A DNA stretch of 21,043 bases from a virus, in IMG/VR virus record IMGVR_UViG_3300048586_000797, positions 1 to 21,043 of that record; one strand, given 5' to 3'. Positions 1,577-13,344 of this stretch are shown piece by piece (position 1 is the stretch's first letter; every line of letters begins with the position of its first letter). The position numbers and the translations under genes are program-made. A model generated the notes under the pieces. The model did not search any database. It saw only the letters and a list, made by a program, of their open reading frames with translations, and was not told where the DNA came from.

Positions 1577-2080
1577 CTACTTGTGGTTGAGGTGCTGGTC
1601 GCTGTCGATGATCAAGCCGCGTCGCTCCCAGCGGCGGAGCATGCCGAGGACTTTGCGGCCCAGCATCATCTCGAGCTCGTCGGCCATGAAGTGCAGCTGG
1701 TCGCGAATCGTGCCGCCGATGCCGTCGAGGTGTCCCCACCCGAAGTCCATGAGTGCCGTGCCGGCAACGGAGGGGTCGAGGGGACGTTCGAGCTGGCGGC
1801 GGCCGCGCACGATCGACTCGGCTGCGCTGGGAAGGTGCGCGCGGCCTTCGTTGCGGAGATCCGCCAGCCGCTCGAGCATGGCGTGCGTGACCTCGAGGGT
1901 GGATCCGTGCATGGTGCCGCTCTCGTAGCGGTGCTCGAGTTGCAGTTGGCGTAGCAGGGCCACGATCAAGGTGCGCCGCCGGGCGATCGACCCACTGAGC
2001 TCGAGGGGCTCCTTCAGGAGCGGGTCGATGACGACCTGCTCTTCGAGCCACGACGTGAGGTACTGCCCCGGGGTGGTCAT
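1577..2080 (-). CDS. hypothetical protein, 167 residues, mostly helical
   Basis: I do not recognise the family. The product is a soluble-looking 167-residue protein, predicted mainly helical, with charged amphipathic stretches (about residues 5-55 and 60-100) and a C-terminal helix rich in Met, Leu and Arg. It has no signal peptide, membrane span or metal motif. ATG 2080 is the first in-frame ATG; AGG just upstream is a weak ribosome site. It lies 41 bases beyond the strong hairpin at 2122-2150, on the same strand as the late operon. It is therefore either expressed by read-through or has its own promoter, which I cannot point to with confidence. Its TAG stop is followed by the gene remnant. 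Position at the end of the lysis module next to the integrase suggests an accessory or regulatory role, without direct evidence. Confidence 0.7.
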   Translation of the reverse strand: MTTPGQYLTSWLEEQVVIDPLLKEPLELSGSIARRRTLIVALLRQLQLEHRYESGTMHGSTLEVTHAMLERLADLRNEGRAHLPSAAESIVRGRRQLERPLDPSVAGTALMDFGWGHLDGIGGTIRDQLHFMADELEMMLGRKVLGMLRRWERRGLIIDSDQHLNHK

Positions 2081-3027: not shown

Positions 3028-3067
3028 CTGCCTCTCCTACGGTGGCGGGGAGGGACTGCGCGTCGGT

Positions 3068-3098
3068 GGCGGGGTGATTCCGTCGGAATCGCCCCGCC
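3068..3098. repeat. palindromic hairpin element, copy 1 (between lysin and holin-like gene)
   Basis: A 14-bp stem (3068-3081 with 3085-3098, one G-U wobble) closes on a 3-base loop. Its core at 3070-3090 is identical in 20 of 21 bases to 15031-15051, in the gap before the major tail gene. It could act as a terminator, an RNA-processing or stability hairpin, or a protein-binding operator. The conserved loop-side sequence GATTCCGT-GGAATC argues for more than a generic terminator. Confidence 0.7.
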
Positions 3099-3116
3099 GC
3101 TCGGCGTGGTCATCGT

Positions 3117-3350
3117 TCAGCCGCCTGGCGCCCGGGCGCCGACGATCTGGAGCTCGCTCAGGATGGGCACGGCGGCGGCGGGAGCCTTGCGGATCCACTG
3201 GGTCTCGCGGTTCGGGTCGTTCGCCGGCACTGGCGCGACGAGTCCGACGATCGCTCGTTGCTCGAGCGCCCGGGTGGAGGTGATGTGCTCGCGGTGGGTG
3301 CCGGTGCACAGCCATACCTTGTGGTCGGGGAAGCGGTACGCGAGTGCCAT
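3117..3350 (-). CDS. possible independently translated C-terminal domain of the endolysin
   Basis: Inside the lysin gene, Met213 (ATG 3350-3348) is preceded by a full AGGAGG at 3364-3359 with an ideal 8-base spacer, better than the site of the lysin itself. It falls exactly at the border between the Thr/Pro linker and the C-terminal domain and would yield 77 residues beginning MALAYRFPDHK. Several phage endolysins are known to make their wall-binding domain separately from an internal start, giving hetero-oligomeric enzymes. That this happens here is inferred from the site and its position only. Confidence 0.5.
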   Translation of the reverse strand: MALAYRFPDHKVWLCTGTHREHITSTRALEQRAIVGLVAPVPANDPNRETQWIRKAPAAAVPILSELQIVGARAPGG

Positions 3351-3986
3351 GTCGGGGTCCTCCTGGCGGACGGTGGGTGGCTCGGTGGGCGCGGGGGTGG
3401 GGGTGCCGGTCATGCGGCGTGCGACCCGTGCCCGCCCGCCGGTGAGGTCGTAGGGCCGGACGTCGATCTTGCGGCCTGCGGGCCGGCAGATCGACTTGTG
3501 GTCCCAGAGGTCGGTGCCGGGTTGCAGGCCGAGGTAGATGCAGATGGCGGCGTTGCCCTGGATCATCGCTTCGTACTGGCGGCCGTCGACCGGGAACGGT
3601 TCGCCCACGCCGTCGAGGGCGATCTCTCGTCCGAGCGCCCAGTACTTCACCCCGGAGCTGATTCCTCCGCGGTGGGGCAGGTAGGAGACGCCGGGATGGT
3701 TGGCGGCTCCGGAGGCGACGCAGATGTGGACCCCATCGCGGGTGAGTGTGAGGTTGGCGAGCGGTCCCGGGACATCGGGCCGCCCGCGGCGGACGGTCTC
3801 GAGCGCACCCAGGGGGCCGGAGCGTTGGCTGGAGGCATCGTGGTGATCGACGATGGCCAGCCACTCGTGGGGTTCCTTCCCAGCGCCGGCGAACTCGGGC
3901 ACGACCTGGACCGGGAGCCCGGCGTCGCGGAGGATGTCGGGTAGCCACAGAGCGCGGCCGCGGCGGCGGGAGCCGATGCCGGTCAT
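3117..3986 (-). CDS. lysA: endolysin, N-acetylmuramoyl-L-alanine amidase (Ami_2/PGRP type)
   Basis: Cleaves the amide bond between N-acetylmuramic acid and L-Ala in peptidoglycan, releasing progeny at the end of infection. In the 289-residue product the amidase domain covers about residues 10-185. Visible signature: His48-His49 in VDHHDAS, the conserved ANHPG turn near 95-99, and DHKSICRPAGRKID at 162-175 supplying a second zinc-ligand His163, Lys173 and Asp175. A Thr/Pro linker (about 193-206) leads to a C-terminal domain of about 77 residues, probably for cell-wall binding or assembly. ATG 3986 is chosen because it overlaps the stop of the small upstream frame as ATGA; an ATG at 4067 would overlap that gene and has poor spacing. 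There is no signal peptide, so a holin is needed for export. Confidence 0.9.
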   Translation of the reverse strand: MTGIGSRRRGRALWLPDILRDAGLPVQVVPEFAGAGKEPHEWLAIVDHHDASSQRSGPLGALETVRRGRPDVPGPLANLTLTRDGVHICVASGAANHPGVSYLPHRGGISSGVKYWALGREIALDGVGEPFPVDGRQYEAMIQGNAAICIYLGLQPGTDLWDHKSICRPAGRKIDVRPYDLTGGRARVARRMTGTPTPAPTEPPTVRQEDPDMALAYRFPDHKVWLCTGTHREHITSTRALEQRAIVGLVAPVPANDPNRETQWIRKAPAAAVPILSELQIVGARAPGG

Positions 3987-4147
3987 CGGACCGGGTCGAC
4001 GCGGTGGCGTCGCCCTCGGCGGGTGCGCCGTGTGCGGCCAAGCATGCGATCGGGCCAGCCGCTCCATCGCTCCGACGCCATAGGCTCGGGGTAGATCGCG
4101 ACCCAGCCGCAGCGGGAGATGAGCTGCGCTCGGGAGAGCTCAGCCAC
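3983..4147 (-). CDS. small basic protein between holin and endolysin (54 residues)
   Basis: A short frame that fills the gap between the holin stop (4151) and the lysin start. It begins with GTG at 4147, three bases after the holin TGA, and GAGG lies in the end of the holin gene. Its TGA overlaps the lysin ATG as ATGA. The product has a mixed N-terminal half (MAELSRAQLISRCGW, then VAIYPEP) and a strongly basic C-terminal third (about residues 38-50, mostly Arg). No family is recognised and no membrane span is seen. Translational linkage on both sides supports its reality and suggests that lysin synthesis is coupled to it. Confidence 0.6.
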   Translation of the reverse strand: MAELSRAQLISRCGWVAIYPEPMASERWSGWPDRMLGRTRRTRRGRRHRVDPVR

Positions 4148-4698: not shown

Positions 4699-6843
4699 TC
4701 AGGCGGTGCGGACGAACTGGAACACGGACCAGCGCTGGCCAGCGTTCGTGGAGACGCCGTTGCCGCCGGCGGTCACTGTCGAGCGCAGGACGTACTGGCC
4801 CGACGTCGGGATCACGATCCCGGTGTGCTCCACGGGGTCGGGCGCGGCCTCGGTCGTCGGGTTGTACCTGGCGGCGGTGCCGACGGTGATGGTCGACCCG
4901 CCGGCGAGCGGGGTGAGCTCGAACGTGCACGTGCCGAGGGCTGCGCCGCGCTCGCCGAACGACAGCTGCTTCCAGGTGCCGGCGTCGAAGTGTCCGGCGT
5001 ACCACTCGACCCAGCGGTTCAGCGACGTGGAGTCGGCCTGCATGGTGGCGGCGAACCAGCGGGCGTTGCTGAACAGGCGGCTGGGCGCGTGGGACGCGTC
5101 CTTCCACGAGACGAACGCGTGCAGCACCGGCTTGGCCCACTCGCCGTTGCCGATCGCGGCCCGGAGCTCGGCGGCGGTGCGATCTGCGGTGAGATCGATG
5201 CCGGCGAGCGTGCGCGAGGTGGGGACTGCACTGACGTCTGCGGCGTCGAGGACCACGGTGCCGGTGGCGCCGTTCACCGAGTCGACTGCGCCGCCCGAGG
5301 GCGCCGAGGCCTCGCTGACTTCGGCGTTCTCCTGAGCGACCCACTCGGCCGGGGTGCCGGGCGACGCTTCGAGGACGGCGTCGTCGATGGTGGTTGCGCC
5401 GTCGGCGGCGGTGGTGAAGTTGGCGTCGACAGCGGGGACGTCGTCGACCCACACCCGGATCCGGGCGATGTCGAAGTGGCCGGACCCGCGACCGATCCAC
5501 TGCTCGGCGGCGTCCGAGGCTGCGATCGAGGGATCAGCTGCGGACACGTCCTCGACGAGCGTCGTGATCCAGCGAGAGCCGTCGTCGGGGTCTTCGTAGT
5601 CCCAGCCGATGTCGCAGCGCACACGGTGCGAGACGGTGGCCCCGGTGAGGTCGTAGTCGACCATCCACTCGAACCACTTCCCGGCCGGGACCGTGCCGCC
5701 GGTCGACTGGATATCCTCGATCACTGAGCCGTCGGGGGTCTTCTCGACGAACGTGCGCGGCTCGCCCGAGTCGGTCGCGATCGCGCCCTCGATCCGGTCG
5801 GCACCGTCGGTGCCGTCGTTGATCTCCTCGGACCAGTCCTCTTGGTACTGGTTCGGGTTGTCGCTGCTGGGCGACACGACGATTCGTCGCCACGACCGAA
5901 GCCGCAGCGACGAGGCGGGGGAGTCGATCGTCGTGGAGCACGACCAGTGCCCTCGAGGAGAGGTTCCGTAGCCCTCTTCGCCGTAGCCGACCGACGTGTA
6001 CGCGGCCGGCTCGCCACCGAGCGCTGACGGGTCGTCGAACGCCTGGGCCATCCGGGCGGCGTGGCGGGCGATCTGCGCTTGGGTGAGCGCGTAGGCCCCG
6101 AAGCGGGAGGCGTTGTCGTTGATCTGCTCTTGGTCGGTGCCGTCGTCGGTGACGACGTAGGGCAGCACCACGGCGGCCTGTTCCTTCACTGCGGTGGGGA
6201 CTGCGAGTGAGTCGGCGACGGCCTCGTAGAAGGCGGCGGTGTCCGCCGTGCGGAACAGGAGAGCCGACCCGGCCGTGATCGTGAGGTCGGAGTCGTCCGA
6301 AGCTCCGCCGCCGGCAACGTCGCCGGGGCCCCAACGCTCCAGCCCGGCGTCCCACACGAGGCCCTGGCCGTCGGTCGGAGCGGCGGTCGAGGTGTCGACG
6401 TCGGAGAGATCGTCGAGCACGAGGTCGGCCTCGTCGTCAGCGACGGCGATCCCGTTGGACGGGTCGATGTCCCAGTCGGCGTACCCGGCGCCCTCCGGGA
6501 CCGGGAGCAGCGAGACGAGCTCGCTGTCGGCATCGGTCGCGCCGGGATCGAAGAACACCACGGCCCGGGGCGTGGCGCCGCTGGTGTCGGTGGCGGGCAC
6601 CGCCGCTCCGGGGTCGCGCTTGAGCATGCCGAGCTCCGCGTCCCACACGACGGCGATCGTGCCCCGCTCGTAGCCGGGAGCATCCCCGACGTCGAGCTCG
6701 CCGGTGAGGTCCTCGACGGTGGCCATCGACGGCGCAGCGGCCGAAGCACCGTCGGGATCGAGGATCAGCCAGCCGAGCTCGCCGCCGTCGAAGGTGTCGA
6801 GGTGGCCGCGGGCCACGCGGAAGGTGAAGGGGTCGATCGCCAT
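4699..6843 (-). CDS. large minor tail protein / tail fibre, probable receptor-binding protein
   Basis: A 714-residue acidic, modular protein. Residues 1-30 (MAIDPFTFRVARGHL) look like a tail-attachment segment. Around 146-173 is a motif of phage fibres, LSDVDTSTAAPTDGQ followed by GLVWD and W. The middle (about 295-510) is beta-rich with Trp-rich strands and HFDIARIRVWVDD, resembling a concanavalin/LamG-type carbohydrate-binding fold. At 522-537 comes the SVNGATGTVVLDAADV element typical of trimeric fibre shafts, then TLAGIDLTADRTAAELRAAI. The last ~120 residues are another beta-rich domain ending in a C1q/TNF-like strand pattern (GQYVLRSTV, WSVFQF). GGAGG lies five bases before ATG 6843. Position after the hub genes and before lysis suits the distal tail. 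Receptor binding and domain folds are inferred. Confidence 0.8.
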   Translation of the reverse strand: MAIDPFTFRVARGHLDTFDGGELGWLILDPDGASAAAPSMATVEDLTGELDVGDAPGYERGTIAVVWDAELGMLKRDPGAAVPATDTSGATPRAVVFFDPGATDADSELVSLLPVPEGAGYADWDIDPSNGIAVADDEADLVLDDLSDVDTSTAAPTDGQGLVWDAGLERWGPGDVAGGGASDDSDLTITAGSALLFRTADTAAFYEAVADSLAVPTAVKEQAAVVLPYVVTDDGTDQEQINDNASRFGAYALTQAQIARHAARMAQAFDDPSALGGEPAAYTSVGYGEEGYGTSPRGHWSCSTTIDSPASSLRLRSWRRIVVSPSSDNPNQYQEDWSEEINDGTDGADRIEGAIATDSGEPRTFVEKTPDGSVIEDIQSTGGTVPAGKWFEWMVDYDLTGATVSHRVRCDIGWDYEDPDDGSRWITTLVEDVSAADPSIAASDAAEQWIGRGSGHFDIARIRVWVDDVPAVDANFTTAADGATTIDDAVLEASPGTPAEWVAQENAEVSEASAPSGGAVDSVNGATGTVVLDAADVSAVPTSRTLAGIDLTADRTAAELRAAIGNGEWAKPVLHAFVSWKDASHAPSRLFSNARWFAATMQADSTSLNRWVEWYAGHFDAGTWKQLSFGERGAALGTCTFELTPLAGGSTITVGTAARYNPTTEAAPDPVEHTGIVIPTSGQYVLRSTVTAGGNGVSTNAGQRWSVFQFVRTA

Positions 6844-9152: not shown

Positions 9153-10036
9153 CAGCGGGTGCTCCGCACCTTGCAGAACCCGGAGAACGCACCGGTGGCC
9201 ACCGACATCGTGACCACGTTCGCCCCGTCGTCGCCGTCAGACGCGAGGAGTCGAAGCGGGCGGCGGGCCCGGCCCGGCGACGTGCCGGTGCTCGTGGACA
9301 CCTGGACCCGCCCAGGGACCGGCATGTCGTTGAGCAGCGGCATGCCTGCGACGATCTTCAGGACCTGGCCGCCGGTCATCGACAGCGTGAACTGCCAGCG
9401 CTCCCACGAGCCGTCGGCATGGGCGACGTGGATGCGGGGGTTGGTGGTGGTCCCGTGGGCGGTGAATCGGAACTCCCACGCCCGGCGGGCCCATCGTCGG
9501 TAGCCGCCGACGTTCGGGGCCTCGAACGTGGTGGTCGACGTCGGTGACCCGGTGGCGACGTAACCGGCCTGGATAGCGACGGCTGCGTAGGCGGTGGGGT
9601 CGGTGGCCTTCCAGGCCAGCTCGAAGCCGGGCAGGTCGTTGTCGACGGCCTCTTCGTCGGTGAGCCAGTCGCATCGCACGGGCCGGGCGTAGACGCACCA
9701 GGGGTCGTCGCCCCACAGCAGCCCTCGCCAGTAGAGGGGGCGCTCGTCGAGGGGCGACTCGATCGGCTGCATGGCCTCTGCGAGCCGCCACAGCGCGTCG
9801 AGATCGTTGGACGTGCAGTCGGTGGCCACGAGGCGTCCTCGGGGGCTGTGGCGGCCGCCCCACTCCCCTCCTTGCGCCCGGGGTGACGGGTCGTCGCTCG
9901 GTGGCGTGACGCCGAGGCCATCGATGCCGTCGCCGAGGATCAGACCGGGTTCGGCGCCTGGGACCGCGTTGGGTCGGCGGGCGATGACGATGCCTTCCCA
10001 GCCCATCGCGTTGAGGGCAAGGTCGTCGGGCAGCAT
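9152..10036 (-). CDS. distal tail protein (Dit-like)
   Basis: A 294-residue protein lying directly after the tape measure gene, the standard position of Dit, which forms the hexameric ring joining tail tube to hub. Its make-up agrees: an N-terminal domain with the conserved turn around RPLYWRGLLWGDD and a C-terminal galectin-like beta domain (FRFTAHGTTTNPRIHV; WERWQFTLSM). ATG 10036 overlaps the tape measure stop as TGATG; a GTG at 10042 is the only alternative nearby. It ends in TGATG with the hub gene. The middle (about 45-70) is a Gly/Pro/Ser-rich loop. Assignment is by synteny and beta pattern. Confidence 0.8.
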   Translation of the reverse strand: MLPDDLALNAMGWEGIVIARRPNAVPGAEPGLILGDGIDGLGVTPPSDDPSPRAQGGEWGGRHSPRGRLVATDCTSNDLDALWRLAEAMQPIESPLDERPLYWRGLLWGDDPWCVYARPVRCDWLTDEEAVDNDLPGFELAWKATDPTAYAAVAIQAGYVATGSPTSTTTFEAPNVGGYRRWARRAWEFRFTAHGTTTNPRIHVAHADGSWERWQFTLSMTGGQVLKIVAGMPLLNDMPVPGRVQVSTSTGTSPGRARRPLRLLASDGDDGANVVTMSVATGAFSGFCKVRSTR

Positions 10037-13000
10037 CACCACTGGTCGTCTCCGAACACGAACCGTTGCCCGATCTCTCGGGTGACGGCACGCCCTGCGC
10101 CGATCAGCTCGACCACGTGGTGCTCGGGTGCGACTCGAGCACCGCGGAAGCGGCGGCCGCCGGCGGGGCGACGGCGGCCTTGTTCGGCACGGGCTCGCAT
10201 CTCGGCGTTGGAGATCACCTCGCCGGGCACTGCGGGCTCGAAGCCCTCCAGGCCGAACTCGTTGATCGGGTAGATCACGCCAGGAACGACGGGCCCGCCG
10301 CCGGCGCGCGGTGGACCGGGCCGGCCGCTCGAGCCCTCGCCGTAGTCGCCGGCGTTCGCAGCGAGCACGGAACCGAGCGACAGCTTGTCGATGATCATCT
10401 GCGCGCGCTCTTCGAGGGTCTGGAGGTTCAGGCCGAACTCGCGGGCGATCCGCACGACCTCGTCCTCGGTGGTGCCAGCGACCGCGGCCAGCTCGCCGAG
10501 GCTGGCCAGGCCCCCCGTCTTCATCATCTCGATCGAGATCGCCGTGGCGGTCGCGAGATCCTCGGACATCTGCTGGCCTGCCTCACCGGTGGTGGTGATG
10601 GCGATCTGCTGCAGGCGCGCAGCCTCGACGGCGTACGACGACAGGTTCGAGATGGCGTTCTCGGCGTTGTTGACCATGTCGACGAACGCCTGGTCGACGT
10701 CGCCGGTCAGCTGATCGAGGATCGGACCCGCCTGCTCGGGACCGGCCTGCATGAGGCGGGTCACGTACTCGGGGTCGTAGCCGAGCTCGAGCGCCCGCTG
10801 GATGTCGCCCGAGAAGTCCTCGGTGTCGGCCAGGACGTCGCGGTAGAAGGCCTCGATCTTGTCCTGGTTGAGCGGCGAGTCGGTGGCGAGCAGGTCCGAC
10901 AGCGACTCGCGAGCGTCGTCGAGGTCCTTGCGGGCCTGCTCGAGCGCGGCGGCGTCGCCGTCGTCACGGACCTCCCGGAGGCGCTTCTCGGCCTCGGCGA
11001 CGGCCTCCCGGGCAGCCTCGACCTGCTTGGGGTCGACCGGGTCGTCCGTGACCTGCAGGACGTCTCCGAAGCTGGCGTACGCGTCGGCCACAGCGGACTG
11101 GGCCTCCTCGATCACCTTGACGTTGGCGGCGAGGACCTCGGGGTCGAGGCGCAGGGCCTCGTCCATGTCGGTGCCGGTGAGCTGCGCAGCGGTCTGGAGC
11201 TCTTCCCACTTGGCGATCAGCTCAGGGGTCGCTTGGCCGGTCTCGTCGAACGCGTCGGGAAGCCCGACTCCAGCGGCGTCGGCGAGGGCCATGACCTGGT
11301 CGGCGGTGAGGCCGGTCTCGTCCCGGAACATCCGCATCCCGACGGCCGACCGTTCGACCAGGACGTTGTTGGCTTCGAGCTCAACGCCGAGTGCTGCCTG
11401 TTCGGCGGCGAGCTTCTCGTCGTCGAACCGGTTCGTGGAGCCCTCGGCCTGCAGCTGCTGGAGGCGCTGGATCTCCTCGAGGATGTCCGCCGAGCGGCCG
11501 GTCAGCGAGTCGAGCGACCCGGTGTCGACCTCGTCGAGGCCGGCAAGGAACTCCGACGCGTCGCGGCGGCCGGACTCGTGGAGCTTGTCGAGCGCGAACG
11601 ACGCGGCGGTCGCCCCGATCGCGATGCCGGCGAGGGCACCGCCGGCGATGGCGCCGGCCGATACCGAGGTCTTCGCGATGTTGGAGAACCCGGTGCGTAC
11701 CTTGTCGAGGCCGGCGCTCGAGCGGGGCGTGAGCCGCTTGTTCCAGTCGGGCACGGTGAGCATCCCCGACGCCAGGTCTCGCACACCGGAGGCCATCATG
11801 GTCAGGTTCGGGGCCGAGGCGGCGAGGACCTGCATGCTCGCTGCTGCCGTGGAGATGCCCCGGGTTGCCGCGAGGCCGGCGATCGAGTTGCGCAGGAACA
11901 CGGTGTTGCGGGCGAGCACGACCACGCCGCTCGATGCGAGCTCGAGGCCCGACACCCACGACCCGAACTTCACGGCTCCGTAGGCGATGCCGACGCCGAG
12001 GACGATCTCGGTGTGGTCGGCCAGCAGCCCGGTGAGGTCGCCGACGAGCTCGACCACGGGCATGCCGGCGTTGAGCACGGTGACGAGCGCGACGCCGGTG
12101 GTGTCGAGGGCGACCGGCAGCACGTCGCCGGCGATCTCCTGCAGATCGTCGAGCACCGGCAGGAGCCGCTCACCGAACTCGATCGCCACCGGGACGACGT
12201 CCTCACCGAGGTCCACGAGCGCGTCGCGGGCCTCTGGGGTGGTCGCGATGAGCCCGGCGAGGCCGAGCGCGACGGGCCCGCCGCGGATGAACTGGCCGAA
12301 GAACGGGATCGAGCTCTTCCCGAGGCCCAGCAGCGCGCCGGTGATGCCGGCGGCTGCGGGGCCGTACTGCTCGAGCAGCTCGAGTCCCTCGCCGAGTCCG
12401 TCGACGAGCGGGGGCAGCAGGTCAGCGGCTTCGCCGGCGGCGGTGGCGAGCGCCGGAGCGAAACGGTCGATGACCTCACCGGTTACGTCGGTGAGCAGGG
12501 GCAGCATGTCCTTGAGCTCGTCGACGGTGGGCTCGAAGGACCTGGCGAGGTCCTGGCCGGCCTCGTCGCGGTAGGTGTTCCAGAGGCCGGTAAGGGTCTC
12601 GGACTGCTTGTCCATGAGGCCGGTGAGACGGCCAAGCGCGGGGCCGGCCCGGTTCTCGAGGGCATCGAACACGACGTCGGCAGACACCGTGCCGGCAGTC
12701 ACGGCGCGCTGGGCCTCGACGATCGAGATGTTCATCTGGGCGGCGAGGGCTTCCCAGGCGGGGATGCCAGCCTCGGCCAGCTGGAGCATCTCTTCGGCTT
12801 GGACCTTGCCCTTCTGGCGCATCTGGGTCAGGGCCCGGACCGCGCGCTCGATGCCCTCGGATCCGGTGCCCATGCCGGACGTGGCGTCGCCGAGGGTCTC
12901 CATGATGGGGATGACCCGGTTGGCCTCGAGCCCGACGGCGGTCAGCCGGGATGCTGCGGTCCGCAGGCTGGGCAGATCGAACGGGGTGTCCGCGGCGAAG

Positions 13001-13344
13001 CTGGCGAGGTCCTCGAGGAAGTCCTTGGCAGCACCGGCAGAGCCGAGGGTGGTCTCGAACCCGACGGTGGCCACCTCGTTCGCGGCGGCCAGCTTCACGC
13101 CGTAGACGGTCGCTGCCGCGGCGCCTGCGCCCAGCGCAACGGTTCCGGTGGCGATCGCCTGGGCGGTGATGGCGCCGAGGTCACCGAGCCCGGCGCTGAA
13201 CCCGCGCCGCGTGGAGGCGCCGAGGTTGCGGCCGGCTTTGGCGCCGACGGCGGGGGCCATGGCCGAGAGCTCGCGGTCCATGGTGGCCTGGACGCCCTTG
13301 AGCGAGGGGATGATCTGGACGGCGGCGTAGCCCCATTGGTCCAT
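10036..13344 (-). CDS. tape measure protein
   Basis: The longest gene, 1102 residues. It sets tail length and is injected with the DNA. Residues 90-270 match the conserved tape-measure N-terminal domain (NEVATVGFETTLGSAGAAKD; TPFDLPSLRTAASRL; QMRQKGKVQAEEMLQLAEAG). Hydrophobic Gly/Ala-rich stretches at about 58-88 and again in the middle (GAIAGGALAGIAIGATAASF) would be membrane-active on injection. A long alpha-helical region rich in Glu, Ala and Asp follows, ending in a Gly/Pro-rich tail with FGLEGFEPAVPGE. At about 0.15 nm per residue the tail would be near 165 nm. No muralytic domain is seen. ATG 13344 directly follows the TGA of the second chaperone. Confidence 0.95.
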   Translation of the reverse strand: MDQWGYAAVQIIPSLKGVQATMDRELSAMAPAVGAKAGRNLGASTRRGFSAGLGDLGAITAQAIATGTVALGAGAAAATVYGVKLAAANEVATVGFETTLGSAGAAKDFLEDLASFAADTPFDLPSLRTAASRLTAVGLEANRVIPIMETLGDATSGMGTGSEGIERAVRALTQMRQKGKVQAEEMLQLAEAGIPAWEALAAQMNISIVEAQRAVTAGTVSADVVFDALENRAGPALGRLTGLMDKQSETLTGLWNTYRDEAGQDLARSFEPTVDELKDMLPLLTDVTGEVIDRFAPALATAAGEAADLLPPLVDGLGEGLELLEQYGPAAAGITGALLGLGKSSIPFFGQFIRGGPVALGLAGLIATTPEARDALVDLGEDVVPVAIEFGERLLPVLDDLQEIAGDVLPVALDTTGVALVTVLNAGMPVVELVGDLTGLLADHTEIVLGVGIAYGAVKFGSWVSGLELASSGVVVLARNTVFLRNSIAGLAATRGISTAAASMQVLAASAPNLTMMASGVRDLASGMLTVPDWNKRLTPRSSAGLDKVRTGFSNIAKTSVSAGAIAGGALAGIAIGATAASFALDKLHESGRRDASEFLAGLDEVDTGSLDSLTGRSADILEEIQRLQQLQAEGSTNRFDDEKLAAEQAALGVELEANNVLVERSAVGMRMFRDETGLTADQVMALADAAGVGLPDAFDETGQATPELIAKWEELQTAAQLTGTDMDEALRLDPEVLAANVKVIEEAQSAVADAYASFGDVLQVTDDPVDPKQVEAAREAVAEAEKRLREVRDDGDAAALEQARKDLDDARESLSDLLATDSPLNQDKIEAFYRDVLADTEDFSGDIQRALELGYDPEYVTRLMQAGPEQAGPILDQLTGDVDQAFVDMVNNAENAISNLSSYAVEAARLQQIAITTTGEAGQQMSEDLATATAISIEMMKTGGLASLGELAAVAGTTEDEVVRIAREFGLNLQTLEERAQMIIDKLSLGSVLAANAGDYGEGSSGRPGPPRAGGGPVVPGVIYPINEFGLEGFEPAVPGEVISNAEMRARAEQGRRRPAGGRRFRGARVAPEHHVVELIGAGRAVTREIGQRFVFGDDQW

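Follow-up and report, generated by a model that had tools for sequence, protein, structure and literature searches.

The endolysin gene in a stretch of viral DNA probably contains a genuine internal translation start, to judge from a ribosome-binding site and start codon placed between its catalytic and C-terminal domains. The stretch analysed here (hereafter the window) is the 21,043 bases of IMG/VR record IMGVR_UViG_3300048586_000797, with a G+C content of 66–75% along its length. On the reading that we favour, and consider likely as a whole, the gene would give rise to a full-length amidase made by translational coupling and to an independently initiated C-terminal tail, the latter acting with the full enzyme in lysis. 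The site, its rank among internal codons, its persistence in a related phage and its recurrence at the same domain border in other lysins can all be read directly from the sequences.

The lysin gene and its probable internal start site

The relevant features are given below, where G001 denotes the one close relative found.

3117–3986, minus strand: endolysin gene of the N-acetylmuramoyl-L-alanine amidase type, 289 residues (phrog_880; PDB 9hna; Amidase_2 below threshold)
3411–3986, minus strand: amidase domain, residues 1–192 (relatives align over approximately residues 6–212)
3351–3410, minus strand: linker, residues 193–212, Pro/Thr-rich and variable compared with G001
3359–3364, minus strand: internal Shine–Dalgarno sequence AGGAGG (duplex −10.3 kcal/mol; GGAGG kept in G001)
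3348–3350, minus strand: internal start codon ATG (Met213), best among 78 internal in-frame ATGs
3117–3350, minus strand: predicted separate 77-residue tail product (from translation; no family match)
3983–4147, minus strand: 54-codon gene, conserved in G001, whose stop overlaps the lysin start as ATGA

The N-terminal part of the lysin is an endolysin catalytic domain, matching phrog_880 (E = 1.3e-20) and, over residues 6–193, the solved amidase PDB 9hna (E = 1.1e-7). The Pfam Amidase_2 match (PF01510; E = 5e-4) scores 20.9 bits against a gathering threshold of 26, so we treat the protein as an amidase relative via phrog_880 and 9hna and not as a Pfam member. The conserved His/His/Asp-or-Cys set and nearby Lys of Amidase_2 are present as H48, H163, D175 and K173, all four invariant across seven lysins. 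By analogy with T7 lysozyme, we take H48, H163 and D175 to be the metal ligands, with K173 close by. No relatives of the lysin were found in genome contigs, and it was not found in 25 phage records that share the capsid protein. Seven diverse lysins, once aligned, proved too divergent to serve for a scan of the collections.

The original prediction had placed AGGAGG at 3364–3359, followed by an 8-base spacer and an ATG at 3350, and this arrangement was confirmed on the minus strand. The spacer (3358–3351) reads ACCCCGAC, and the open reading frame from the ATG runs for 77 codons, in frame with the lysin that starts at 3986, to the stop at 3119–3117. As predicted, the site is stronger than the lysin's own, an ATGA overlap with almost no Shine–Dalgarno sequence (−2.3 versus −10.3 kcal/mol). 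Duplex energies against the 16S tail were computed for every ATG and GTG lying in frame inside the 26 genes of the window; Met213 was the sole ATG stronger than −9 kcal/mol among the 78 internal in-frame ATGs, the runner-up reaching −8.0. With mRNA folding and spacing added, in a simplified version of the RBS Calculator, Met213 again came first of the 78, and its total energy beat all but one of the real ATG and GTG starts scored. The worst of these real starts was the lysin's own (18.0, versus 1.4 for Met213, on this crude energy scale). Met213 is a candidate in-frame internal start between two domains that stands well above the gene background. Separately, an in-frame GTG (codon 752) at 11091 on the minus strand, within the gene at 10036–13344, follows GAGGAGG (−11.0 kcal/mol) at a longer spacing of 10 nt and is a possible second internal start in this long, tape-measure-like gene.

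G001 (IMGVR_UViG_3300048586_000582; 46,006 bases) is largely collinear with the window and encodes a lysin 90% identical to that of the window. Seven of the 16 linker residues at codons 193–208 differ between the two, whereas codons 209–221 show no residue changes and two synonymous ones; along the tail, six of 75 aligned residues differ. This step from variable to unchanged sequence bears out the view that the site lies at the border between linker and C-terminal domain. Homologous lysins lacking both the site and the Met would have counted against the prediction; G001, in which the site reads CGGAGG, keeps GGAGG, the spacing and the ATG at the same relative position despite the change in the linker. 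At codon 208, CAG in the window is replaced by ACG with the final G retained, and GCA, which encodes the second residue of the small product and makes up approx. 8% of Ala codons in window genes, is also kept. At the nucleotide level the stretch does not stand out: in the synonymous comparison with G001, 18 of 275 intervals are as conserved, so we count the persistence of the site as support, not proof.

The same comparison yielded several observations on the surrounding genome. The tail-fibre-like gene at 4699–6843 (minus strand) is only 46% identical to its G001 counterpart amid neighbours that are mostly 75–98% identical, which suggests rapid divergence of a receptor-binding module. The stretch holding a 167-residue open frame at 1577–2080 (minus strand; no family match) has no counterpart in G001; two phages that are collinear elsewhere differ here by a gain or a loss. 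A strong hairpin (3061–3110, minus strand; −28.8 kcal/mol, z −5.1) with no U run after it follows directly on the lysin stop and precedes the membrane-protein-like gene that comes next. Its single internal stem mismatch is repaired to a pair in G001 (−35.8 kcal/mol, z −5.6), and it may be a terminator, a processing site or a regulatory RNA. Lastly, approximately 170 bases recur, with a few mismatches, at both ends of the G001 contig (L002 and L003), in sequence that belongs to the 3′ end of the lysin gene; the genome may be circular or permuted and imperfectly joined, or the population may vary there.

Candidate border starts in lysins with the same amidase

Lysins that carry this amidase domain were gathered from actinobacterial genomes, viral contigs and annotated phages, giving 116 proteins that reduced to 44 at approximately 60% identity, 41 of them with a tail of at least 30 residues. 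A strong start was defined as an in-frame ATG whose duplex energy was −9 kcal/mol or lower. Within a border zone, set after examples had been seen and reaching from 3 codons before to 42 codons after the point where the amidase match ends, 7 of 40 in-frame ATGs were strong starts, compared with 0 of 76 in the amidase and 0 of 17 further on (7/40 versus 0/93, p = 0.00015; p = 0.0005 with the window excluded). Among out-of-frame ATGs at the border, only 1 of 23 had a strong Shine–Dalgarno sequence (in versus out of frame, p = 0.0026). The border also had more ATG codons for its length (40 in 1845 codons) than the amidase (76 in 5762) or the region further on (17 in 2913). By total energy, the best internal start fell at the border in 25 of the 41 lysins, where the proportion of start codons would predict 8.5, in a sample of modest size that may include some cellular enzymes and under a simplified energy model.

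The seven lysins with a strong border start are those of the window, L053, L073, L094, L128, L153 and L172. Similar peptides recur at the border and encode the site: QEDPDM in the window, QEDTM in L094, QEDDM in L153 and QEDDV in L129. The tails of the surveyed lysins show little or no similarity to one another apart from a few small groups, and several open with Met-Ser, Met-Pro or Met-Ala, as ordinary proteins do. Eight tails match recognised wall-binding families (PG_binding_1, SH3_3 or LGFP). None of these eight has a border best start with a total energy of 3 or below, compared with 19 of the other 33 (Fisher p = 0.004), in a post hoc comparison in which five of the eight tails are mutually similar. 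The less expected part of the analysis is this recurrence of border starts with unrelated orphan tails, together with their absence from recognised wall-binding tails. A search for a tail gene directly downstream of lysins with very short tails found nothing convincing. The prediction of a functional internal start has good computational support from the top score in the window, retention in G001 and recurrence at the border in other lysins, the survey carrying the most weight.

Could the site be fortuitous? In this G+C-rich genome the acidic linker end Gln-Glu-Asp-Pro-Asp uses the codons CAG GAG GAC, and a Met might follow by chance with nothing starting there. With Gln-Glu-Asp held fixed, 74% of synonymous recodings contain GGAGG (20% for the residues of G001); approximately 5% of random genes with matching codon usage show one internal ATG as good as Met213; and the window has 18 copies of AGGAGG against 13.4 expected, which is no enrichment of the motif alone. 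These figures speak for chance, but chance would not readily account for the recurrence of the site at the same border, in frame, not elsewhere in the gene and before mostly unrelated tails. Nor would it readily explain retention of the site through the residue change at codon 208 in G001. We think a fortuitous site unlikely.

Two further explanations accept the pattern but not the start. Lysins are modular, and the tail might descend from a stand-alone gene that brought its ribosome site along when it joined the amidase gene, the start now being idle; the ordinary protein-like openings of several tails would fit such a history. Against this, among the matches listed from 50,697 phage records, two orphan tail families always sat inside genes annotated as lysins or endolysins and never formed a gene by themselves, as one would expect of lysin modules rather than of accidental fusions. 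The site in G001 has also outlasted drift in the linker. We consider a fossil start quite improbable. Shine–Dalgarno-like stretches have also been proposed, with some dispute, to slow ribosomes, and one lying exactly between two domains could give the amidase time to fold without any initiation. Pausing needs no start codon, however, yet ATGs are denser at the border, and strong Shine–Dalgarno sequences there favour in-frame over out-of-frame ATGs; this explanation strikes us as highly improbable.

The tail domain and the proposed two products

The original prediction could assign the tail to no wall-binding family, and our searches with residues 213–289 agree: Pfam, PHROGs, NCBIfam and the PDB gave no match. 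In phages, tblastn yielded a best E-value of 6; among viral contigs, G001 alone matched; and a tail profile run against 395 genomes of the class of Blastococcus gave weak matches in 29 (E 0.002–0.05), approximately the level of chance. The tail and the end of L072 resemble each other around a KVWL motif, in what we take to be an alignment by chance. Two AlphaFold predictions, made with too few sequences, reached pLDDT values of 27.8 and 48.6. The suggestion that the tail is a wall-binding subunit of a hetero-oligomer is drawn by analogy only.

Under the two-product reading, ribosomes would re-initiate at ATG 3986 through the ATGA overlap with the 4147–3983 gene, producing the full amidase, and would load independently at AGGAGG/ATG 3350, using the internal start to make the 77-residue tail alone. 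The short product would then take part in lysis together with the full-length enzyme, as an additional subunit for binding or assembly; it may bind the wall, associate with the full enzyme or set the timing of lysis. From the relative strengths of the two sites, the long form would not outnumber the short one. A broader and more tentative idea, which we think somewhat unlikely, is that the orphan tails of actinobacterial amidase lysins form exchangeable cassettes with their ribosome sites and start codons. Unrelated tails would bring or rebuild their own start, peptidoglycan-binding tails would do without one, and the separate tails would serve as assembly or timing subunits, not plain wall binders.

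In a separate observation, many Gordonia phage genomes (H86–H101) match one C-terminal lysin domain twice, the top match being an annotated lysin A peptidase gene. The second match may be the remaining half of a lysin A that has been split, which would hint that the domain unites the parts.

If two products are made, annotation of such lysins should list both, and recombinant lysins from recoded genes might lose a partner subunit. The seven lysins with strong border starts offer a small testable set in which the tails mostly differ.

Relation to known two-product endolysins

An internal start within an endolysin gene is an arrangement already known and published, as the original prediction had noted. 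Single genes encoding two polypeptides with one catalytic domain include Lys170, LysIME-EF1, CTP1L, CD27L, CS74L and LysP7951 (PMC9430671, PMC4777826, PMC7098653). Internal starts have been predicted in 51.5% of endolysin genes compared with 15.2% of portal genes, and several have been demonstrated by experiment. Where the 2022 survey names examples with one catalytic domain, they belong to phages of Enterococcus, Clostridium, Lactococcus and Streptococcus.

Other actinobacterial phages offer partial parallels. The LysA genes of mycobacteriophage Ms6 and of Pollywog also have an internal start, and the two Ms6 products set the timing of lysis. Unlike the predicted start in the window, which lies between amidase and tail, theirs falls between two catalytic domains, so that the short form is still an enzyme. 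Lysins of the phrog_880 type from Mycobacterium, Gordonia and Arthrobacter phages have a homologous amidase (approx. 29–37% identity to the window lysin); the match ends near residue 192, and their C-terminal domains have no detectable relation to the window tail.

The closest likeness is to the Lys170-type endolysins, which resemble the window lysin, as predicted here, in having a single catalytic domain and an in-frame internal start before the C-terminal domain, giving that domain alone. The tails of Lys170-type enzymes are wall-binding domains for which the product or complex has been demonstrated, whereas that of the window is an orphan known from its sequence, in a phage that, unlike theirs, is very G+C-rich and related to phages of actinobacteria. 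The excess of tail expected here would agree with the 1:3 and 1:5 complexes of published two-polypeptide endolysins, and the window lysin would add to this class a member from a very G+C-rich phage with an orphan tail.
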